The translations under genes and the position numbers were made by a program. Shown one piece after another: positions 1-12,304 of a stretch of DNA of 37,921 nt (its first letter is position 1; each line of letters begins with the position of its first letter). The notes beneath the pieces are model-generated. The model saw only the letters and a program-made list of their open reading frames with translations. It did no database searches and was not told where the DNA came from. Origin of the DNA: Acidobacteriota bacterium (GTDB lineage Bacteria; Acidobacteriota; Vicinamibacteria; Vicinamibacterales; SCN-69-37); NCBI GenBank assembly GCA_013203475.1, contig JABMNV010000229.1, forward strand, positions 1 to 37,921, read 5' to 3'.

Positions 1-32
1 CCGCGTTGCGGACGATCGGGATTCGGTAACAC
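1..32 (-). CDS. Possible 5' end of the next pilus-operon gene (partial)
   Basis: A GTG at 32-30 opens a reading frame that runs out of the window after ten codons (MLPNPDRPQR). A perfect AGGAGG lies at 45-40, seven nucleotides upstream, which is ideal Shine-Dalgarno spacing. An alternative GTG at 40-38 opens another frame (MGRCYRIPI). The position directly after minor pilin genes is where pilY1-type adhesin genes are often found, but ten residues cannot identify a product. The call rests on the ribosome binding site and the context only. Confidence 0.35.
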   Translation of the reverse strand, partial: MLPNPDRPQR

Positions 33-75
33 CTCCCCACCTCCTCACTTCCTCACTTCCTCACTTCCTCACTTC
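30..75 (-). repeat. 8-bp tandem repeat (GAAGTGAG) spanning a stop codon and Shine-Dalgarno
   Basis: Read on the minus strand, four perfect copies of GAAGTGAG (75-44) are followed by degenerate purine-rich copies GAGGTGGG and GAGGTG down to position 30. The TGA stop of the coiled-coil gene lies inside the first copy. The strong AGGAGG for the following gene comes from the junction of the fourth and fifth copies. The array is therefore part of the translational junction and not a random microsatellite. Confidence 0.85.
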
Positions 76-620
76 TCCCTAAGCCATCCTGGCGGCACCC
101 CGCCCTTGCGCGCCTCTTCCATGATGTCGTCGATGGTCTGCACGTCGGCGGCGAGTTGGTCTCGCATCCGATCGCGTTCGGCGACTGCGCGTCGATGGTC
201 TTCGACGAGCCGCGCCCGTTGCGCTGGGTCATCACGGTTGACCACATCGGTAGTGAGAGCGGCCACCCGACTGTCCAGGGCGGCCACAAGCACCTCACCT
301 CGTGCCACCGCCTCGCGTGCCAGCGTCATACGGGCACGCCACCATTCTTCGTCTTTCGGCGCTTCGTCTTTCGTCTCGGATTCTTCGTTCGTCTCAGGTT
401 CGATTGGCGGACTGATCGCCGCCGGGGTGTCAGCCACGGCGACAGGCGGATCGCGCTCGGGCGGCACCATCAGATCCGCGTTCGTCACGCGGCGAATGGA
501 CGCAGCCGTGTTCGCTCGTCTGAACGCCTCTCGCCTGGCGGCCTCCGCCAGCCCAGACGGTGGCGTATTCCAGAGACCAAGTAACACCTGCATGAGCACG
601 ACCAGGGCTGTCACCGACAC
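69..620 (-). CDS. Membrane-anchored coiled-coil protein of the pilus operon, unknown function
   Basis: The product is 183 aa from a GTG at 620-618, chosen because GAGAGG lies a few bases upstream; the frame stays open upstream to 740 through the repeat. The N-terminus is a hydrophobic segment (VTALVVLMQVLLGLW) compatible with a signal anchor. It is followed by a linker with RRVTNADL, a Pro/Glu/Asp-rich stretch (about residues 55-90) and a charged helical region likely to form a coiled coil (about 95-165). The end is GVPPGWLREK. TNADL-like and PGWLR-like motifs occur, as I recall, in secreted acidobacterial proteins of unknown role. It follows the PilX-like gene, so a role in pilus assembly or anchoring is plausible but inferred. 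Confidence 0.7.
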   Translation of the reverse strand: MSVTALVVLMQVLLGLWNTPPSGLAEAARREAFRRANTAASIRRVTNADLMVPPERDPPVAVADTPAAISPPIEPETNEESETKDEAPKDEEWWRARMTLAREAVARGEVLVAALDSRVAALTTDVVNRDDPAQRARLVEDHRRAVAERDRMRDQLAADVQTIDDIMEEARKGGVPPGWLREK

Positions 621-623
621 ATC

Positions 624-650
624 ATTCCTCTCATTCCTCTCATTCCTCTC
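624..650 (-). repeat. 9-bp tandem repeat (GAGAGGAAT x3) carrying repeated Shine-Dalgarno sites
   Basis: Three perfect copies of GAGAGGAAT occupy 650-624 on the minus strand and are followed by GATGTG, which contains the GTG start of the next gene. Each unit supplies a GAGAGG ribosome-binding core, and each unit boundary creates an in-frame TGA for the upstream PilX-like gene, whose stop is 642-640. The unit is a multiple of three and is open in the frame of the downstream gene. Confidence 0.85.
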
Positions 651-2845: not shown

Positions 2846-3640
2846 CTAAGTCAAGACCGTCCCAAGGTACCAGTCGATGAGGACCTGCCCCCACAGTGAA
2901 GCGACAAGCGCGGCCAGAGAGAGGAAGATGCCGAACGGTAACTTGGTCTGCATCGTCCCTCGTCCCATCACTGTCAGTCCGATGCCGATCGAAGCCCCCA
3001 GGACACTTGACAGCAGCAACACCACCCACACATGCGGCCAGCCAAGGAAAGCTCCGATCATGGCGAGCATCTTGACGTCGCCCAGTCCCATCGCCTCCAC
3101 GCCCCTGGCGCGTTTCCAGATCTCTCGAATGGCGAACAGCGCGGCCGCTCCGATGCTGGCTCCCAGGAGGCCGCCCCACAGCCCAAGTGGACCGATGGCA
3201 CTCAGGCACAGGCCCGCCGCGATGCCGAAGAACGTCAGCGGATTGGGCAACCGAAACGTTTCAAGATCCGTCACCAGTAAGGCCACCAGCAGGGCCGAGA
3301 GCACCAACCGTGACGCGAGGGGGACAGCCAACGTGGGGTCGCTGAGGGGTGACCCACCGAGCACCACTCCCTGCGAGATGAACACGGCTGCCGTGGCCAG
3401 TTCGACCAACGGATAACGTCGACTGATCGTTCCCCGACAGTTGCGACACTGCCCGCCGAGCCACAGCCAACTGAGGACGGGCACGTTGTCGCGCCACGCA
3501 ATCGGCGTTGCGCATGACGGACAGCGAGAGGACGGCGCCAGGACTGACTGCCCCGCCGGCAACCTGGAGATACAGACATTCAGGAAACTGCCCACCATCA
3601 GACCGAACACGCCGAGCACGGCGCCGTCCTGCGGAGTCAT
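2846..3640 (-). CDS. pilD: Prepilin peptidase / N-methyltransferase PilD
   Basis: The product is a 264-aa polytopic inner-membrane aspartyl protease that cleaves class III leaders after Gly and N-methylates the new N-terminus. The N-terminal zinc domain has Cys40-x2-Cys43 and Cys65-x2-Cys68 (CPSC, CRNC). The two catalytic aspartates are Asp125 in VTDLETFRLPN and Asp188 in GLGDVK. About seven hydrophobic segments follow the first one at residues 8-25. The start ATG has GGAGGAAC just upstream and overlaps the preceding stop as ATGA. The substrates are encoded on both sides: PilA upstream, PilV/W downstream. Confidence 0.95.
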   Translation of the reverse strand: MTPQDGAVLGVFGLMVGSFLNVCISRLPAGQSVLAPSSRCPSCATPIAWRDNVPVLSWLWLGGQCRNCRGTISRRYPLVELATAAVFISQGVVLGGSPLSDPTLAVPLASRLVLSALLVALLVTDLETFRLPNPLTFFGIAAGLCLSAIGPLGLWGGLLGASIGAAALFAIREIWKRARGVEAMGLGDVKMLAMIGAFLGWPHVWVVLLLSSVLGASIGIGLTVMGRGTMQTKLPFGIFLSLAALVASLWGQVLIDWYLGTVLT

Positions 3641-12239: not shown

Positions 12240-12256
12240 TGCCCCTCCTCGATCTC

Positions 12257-12304
12257 GAACCCCTGACGGGCCCGAACCCCTGACGGGCCCGAACCCCTGA
12301 CGGG
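12257..12304. repeat. 17-bp tandem repeat in the pilB leader
   Basis: GAACCCCTGACGGGCCC is repeated at 12257-12273 and 12274-12290, followed by a third copy matching over its first 14 bases to 12304. The period is not a multiple of three, which argues that it is untranslated. In the pilB transcript each copy contains CCC-GTCA-GGG, a potential small hairpin, so up to three stacked mini-hairpins would sit just upstream of the AGGAGG and the TTG start. Confidence 0.85.

Follow-up and report, generated by a model that had tools for sequence, protein, structure and literature searches.

Two tandem arrays beside minor-pilin genes of an acidobacterium: probably a dispersed gene-end repeat and a local triplication

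Two neighboring gene ends beside the minor-pilin genes on a contig from an uncultured member of the Acidobacteriota carry different short tandem repeats, raising the question of whether these serve as ribosome-binding sites whose copy number tunes the genes that follow. The window analyzed here is the whole contig (37,921 nucleotides; contig C210 of genome G000). TRF bore out the two arrays reported by the first-pass annotation: an octamer array at 30-75 (period 8, 5.8 copies, 94% matches, score 71) and a 9-bp array at 622-650 (period 9, 3.2 copies, 100% matches, score 58). When the window was dinucleotide-shuffled 100 times, the highest score for an array of period at most 10 was 50, short of the 58 of the 9-bp array. 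Read on the minus strand, the octamer array consists of the units AGAAGTGA (GGAAGTGA)x3, then GGAGGTGG GGAGGTGT. The 9-bp array, also on the minus strand, consists of GAGAGGAAT x3 (650-642, 641-633, 632-624) plus GA; GAT and a GTG start codon come after the last unit. As had been annotated, both units hold a Shine-Dalgarno (SD)-like core, GAGG in the 9-mer, and each array includes the upstream gene's stop codon. A further perfect tandem repeat, the 17-bp unit CGAACCCCTGACGGGCC x2.9, was detected by TRF at 12256-12304.

The genes around the arrays lie on the minus strand. The coiled-coil gene (69-620) begins with GTG at 620-618 and ends in WLREK*, with its last codons and its TGA stop (71-69) supplied by the octamer array; its product matches no family above cut-off. 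Upstream of it is the gene named PilX-like by the first-pass annotation (640-1230), the stop codon of which lies in the first 9-mer unit. This gene has no Pfam or NCBIfam match and has homologues in 41 of the 60 genomes searched, its own included. It is preceded by genes for a PilW-like minor pilin with an N-terminal methylation motif (1224-2270; PF07963), a PilV-like minor pilin (2267-2674; PF07963, with TIGR02523 below cut-off), and a prepilin peptidase (2846-3640; PF06750 and PF01478).

The octamer array had been described as preceding the next gene of the operon, a placement that does not hold, as the contig stops 29 bp past the array and the neighbor is the stop codon of a convergent gene. 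Translated on the plus strand, positions 3-29 give ALRTIGIR*, identical to the AroB C-terminus in relative G005; we assign them by translation and synteny to the last eight codons and stop of aroB, the remainder of which would lie past the contig end. In G001, G003 and G005, the gene downstream of the coiled-coil homologue is aroB, encoding 3-dehydroquinate synthase, above curated cut-offs (TIGR01357; also Pfam), and in G004 and G008 it was identified by similar translation only. It is convergent with the coiled-coil gene in all five relatives. G001 and G005 lack an array there, the two stop codons overlapping by 4 bp; G003 has a GGGGAGAT array at the coiled-coil gene end of the same junction, and G008 has a 135-bp gap in which no repeat was seen by eye. 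A full-length aroB was not found in the window's own assembly (C156 gave only a weak match, 41% over 105 residues), so the convergent neighbor rests on eight residues, an in-frame stop and synteny in relatives; the full gene is taken to lie in sequence missing from the assembly. The octamer array fills the 39 bp between the two convergent stop codons, with no start codon after it, and so no following gene could use it as a ribosome-binding site. If the neighbor is aroB, as its translation indicates, this role would be excluded, and slippage control of a ribosome-binding site at both junctions was dropped for 30-75 on this ground. The array was also rejected as a G-quadruplex or intrinsic terminator: it has a single G run of at least three where four are needed, and no terminator-like site was found in positions 1-800.

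The octamer array instead belongs to a family dispersed through the genome. The family pattern, GGRRRTGRGGRRRTGRGGRR (GGGGARRT), has 47 matches in the genome (22 forward and 25 reverse), compared to none for the reversed-pattern control. These matches form 28 arrays, 27 of them distinct, since one array appears at two contig ends. The strict patterns used to find arrays miss degenerate ones; C146 and C5:30814 (loci L015 and L020) fall short of the pattern and are outside the 28. The family has the properties of dispersed gene-end arrays, namely many copies, mostly intergenic, on both strands. Adjacent units are identical in a proportion of 0.305 compared to 0.117 after shuffling, a value that none of 2000 shuffles reached, which fits local duplication. 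Thirteen of the 28 arrays fit a G-quadruplex pattern. The flanks of the GGGGARRT arrays have nothing in common except in two cases: an array divided between two contig ends, and an inverted pair whose two arms share flanking sequence. The idea of the array as cargo of a larger mobile element was rejected on this basis. The divided array is the one whose flank is shared by the start of C180 and the end of C245.

Further families, including GGCAATGA, AGCACCC and AATCTGA, are present in a 260-kb sample of the genome. Three families were mapped, GGGGARRT, GGCAATKR and GGGTGCT (the sense form of which at gene ends is AGCACCC), giving 70 arrays, 69 of them distinct. With gene starts and ends taken from a simple codon-usage caller written for this analysis, only one of the 70 lies inside a called gene, while 32 contain a called gene 3' end when array boundaries are extended. 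For the arrays containing a gene 3' end, the ratio of sense to antisense is 11:2 for GGGGARRT, 17:0 for GGCAATKR, and 0:3 for GGGTGCT as written; for a gene 3' end within 30 nt, the counts are 12 and 3, 19 and 0, and 2 and 6 as written, respectively. Gene starts within 30 nt are split (sense/antisense) 4/4 for GGGGARRT, 9/1 for GGCAATKR and 3/2 for GGGTGCT. The even split argues against a ribosome-binding role for the window's family; the GGCAATKR split provides no such argument. A called gene start is contained in 10 of the 70 arrays, all on the sense strand as written, and some arrays may therefore act in translation. A ribosome-binding role for the GGAAGTGA unit is most plausible at G000:C163:5126-5165 (L010:2995-3034), where a GGAAGTGA array resembling that of the window lies directly between a gene that we take to be tsaD and the ATG of the next gene.

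Several arrays were observed in other settings. Inverted pairs lie between convergent genes at C1:5699-5814 (L088) and C13:18570-18639 (L013), each arm sense to the nearer gene, as in Xanthomonas. In a compound array at G000:C131:3199-3300 (L011), ATTCCCG and ATTTCAG heptamers come after GGGGARRT units. Arrays also seem to break the assembly, given that 21 of the 70 are within 100 bp of a contig end; examples of array-bearing ends are those of C98, C154, C180, C189, C210, C237, C245, C83, C97, C168, C182, C115, C118, C222 and C262.

The families vary strongly between lineages. In comparison with the 47 matches in the window's genome, six congeners have 0-8 matches to GGGGARRT; the corresponding counts are 57 and 0-88 for GGCAATKR, and 22 and 0-71 for GGGTGCT. 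Beyond the genus, two of the 53 listed genomes match GGGGARRT: G034 has a single match, and G047 has seven compared to 15 for its reversed control, so that these are not counted as family members. GGCAATKR is matched in two of the 53, with 66 matches in G011 (same family, other genus) and one in G046, and GGGTGCT in three, with one match each (G022, G033 and G052).

Equivalent gene ends can also carry unrelated arrays. The genes concerned are presumably tsaD, clpA and metH, judged by their translations. At the tsaD end, the window's genome has GGAAGTGA units and its sister species G005 has ATTGCAG-type units, both before the same next gene; inspection by eye showed no array of this sort in G001, G003 or G004. 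The G005 heptamer array lacks an SD core, which is a further point against a general ribosome-binding role. At the clpA end, the window's genome has GGCAATKR units, G005 has a GATTCCCCGATTGCCCGATA array, and G006 has two CAGTTCCC units. The metH homologue ends in ERWLGTLLQ plus the array's TGA in the window's genome, compared to ERWL(G/S/A)PNL* in six relatives (G001, G003-G006 and G008), indicating that the array replaces the native end by a codon or two. A general role as a frame-proof stop cassette, an 8-bp array offering TGA in every frame, was considered and rejected, since AGCACCC and ATTGCAG arrays sit alike without such stops.

The abundance of arrays bears on the argument that two at adjacent junctions are unlikely to be chance. 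This argument is weak: in the 260-kb sample, 12 of the 219 called junctions have a 7-9 bp array, and approximately 0.6 adjacent array-bearing pairs are expected among 201, with none seen (the window's pair is left out, since the contig end truncates aroB). At this expectation, two neighboring arrays are not remarkable.

The array at 622-650 is of a different nature. Searching the genome with GAGAGGAATGAGAGGAATGA, with up to two mismatches allowed, revealed no second occurrence, and no 9-mer repeat was found at the matching site in the five relatives with the coiled-coil gene, each of which has a single stop/SD segment where the window has three. The array is a lineage-specific triplication of one SD/stop segment. 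It lies between the promoter/SD region and the start codon, whereas 30-75 does not, a convergent stop coming next. The ribosome-binding interpretation is supported in part: the SD core is repeated just before the coiled-coil GTG at 622-650, but 30-75 is placed between two stops. A translational effect of 622-650 on the coiled-coil gene is possible from its position, and the spacing of the final copy to the GTG is constant whatever the copy number. The repeat also creates a possible out-of-frame mini-ORF on the minus strand (611-643; MRGMRGMMCR), read from the sequence only, the ATG of which overlaps the PilX-like stop.

On balance, the two arrays probably differ in kind: 30-75 would be a copy of a dispersed gene-end family, and 622-650 a local triplication of a stop/SD segment in which the extra copies are probably near neutral. 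Most likely, the arrays have spread and been resized by slippage or copying and are tolerated just after stop codons, with no rheostat for the pilus. Array length would change by local duplication of units, for which we infer slippage, and family members would reach many sites through some copying process. Arrays would survive mainly in spacers and at or just after stop codons. Where an array in sense orientation reaches the end of a gene, its own TGA would serve as the stop codon. On this basis, 30-75 would separate the coiled-coil and aroB stops and probably has no gene-specific function, while the last copy at 622-650 would remain the working SD.

Three other explanations were weighed against tolerance. 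A translational rheostat, in which slippage would alter SD copy number or spacing and thereby tune the downstream gene, is tenable only for 622-650, given the absence of a start codon downstream of 30-75. It is in keeping with the SD core of each unit, the perfect copies, the position of the last copy just before a conserved GTG start, and the contrast of three 9-mer copies with no repeat in five relatives; however, the fixed spacing of the last copy means that any effect may be small, and the explanation seems decidedly unlikely. Coupling of operon genes by termination and reinitiation, with each unit providing an SD core, a start and an overlapping stop (GAGG..RTGA), would make sense of the make-up common to GGAAGTGA, GGCAATGA and GAGAGGAATGA and of the 10 sense-oriented arrays that contain a called gene start. 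We regard this as very improbable, as AGCACCC and ATTGCAG units occupy the same kind of place without this make-up and some arrays are found between convergent genes.

Strict stop-codon placement and sense bias could also mean a function at the mRNA 3' end. Arrays would then affect the pausing, termination or stability of transcripts by means of G-rich structure, or of inverted pairs such as those on C1 and C13 described above. In Xanthomonas, G4-forming repeats are more frequent sites of transcript starts or stops than controls are (PMC4692102). Nonetheless, the window's array has one G run of at least three and no terminator-like site, fewer than half of its family (13/28) could form a quadruplex, and equivalent places are held by unrelated families; we consider this explanation unlikely.

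A broader proposal is more tentative, and we hold it to be possible but doubtful: some process in the genus may seed short arrays at stop codons, such that the same gene ends acquire unrelated 7-8 bp families in different species, with the array supplying the stop. If true, gene ends would be turning over fast and with a bias in site, through sequences too short to encode their own spread. Short tandem repeats at gene junctions invite interpretation as phase-variable switches; in this case, the neighboring gene and the relatives indicate a gene-end array, of a kind known from Xanthomonas and Nostoc, for one of the pair. Junctions that carry different arrays or none in related genomes also provide a natural comparison for studying the spread of such arrays and their possible action on transcript ends.

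No paper was found on tandem repeats in Vicinamibacter, nor on octamer repeats with a stop codon, in our literature search. The STRR heptamers of filamentous cyanobacteria were reportedly described by Mazel in 1990. These are likewise short tandem repeats dispersed in spacers, with no function assigned, but have 7-bp units of another sequence (PMC2670836). Geobacter metallireducens has a heptamer element at 49 places and octamer repeats in pairs; unlike here, these elements are interpreted as regulator-binding sites, occur also within genes, and have other sequences (PMC2700814). The TAACTGA direct repeats of marine Beggiatoaceae resemble the present arrays in being short and dispersed, in having stops in all three frames, and in some cases in overlapping upstream stop codons, but are mostly just upstream of start codons, with little SD character and another sequence (MacGregor, PMC4679880).

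The closest likeness is to the repeats of Xanthomonas and Nostoc, described by Rehm et al. (PMC4692102) as dispersed quadruplex-forming arrays of GGGNATC or GGGGA(C/T)T biased to stop codons. Both systems comprise short G-rich tandem arrays that are mostly intergenic, tend in sense orientation to be at stop codons or to overlap them, and include inverted pairs; prominent repeats in that account are also not common to the same genes in two species. The 30-75 unit differs from the 7-bp GGGNATC and GGGGAYT in being 8 bp (GGGGARRT), and the present arrays differ in their acidobacterial host genus, in the coexistence of at least three families, and in a window copy without G runs of the quadruplex-forming kind. 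The arrays of this genome are of the same kind as the gene-end repeats of Xanthomonas and Nostoc, found in another phylum and with 8-bp units.
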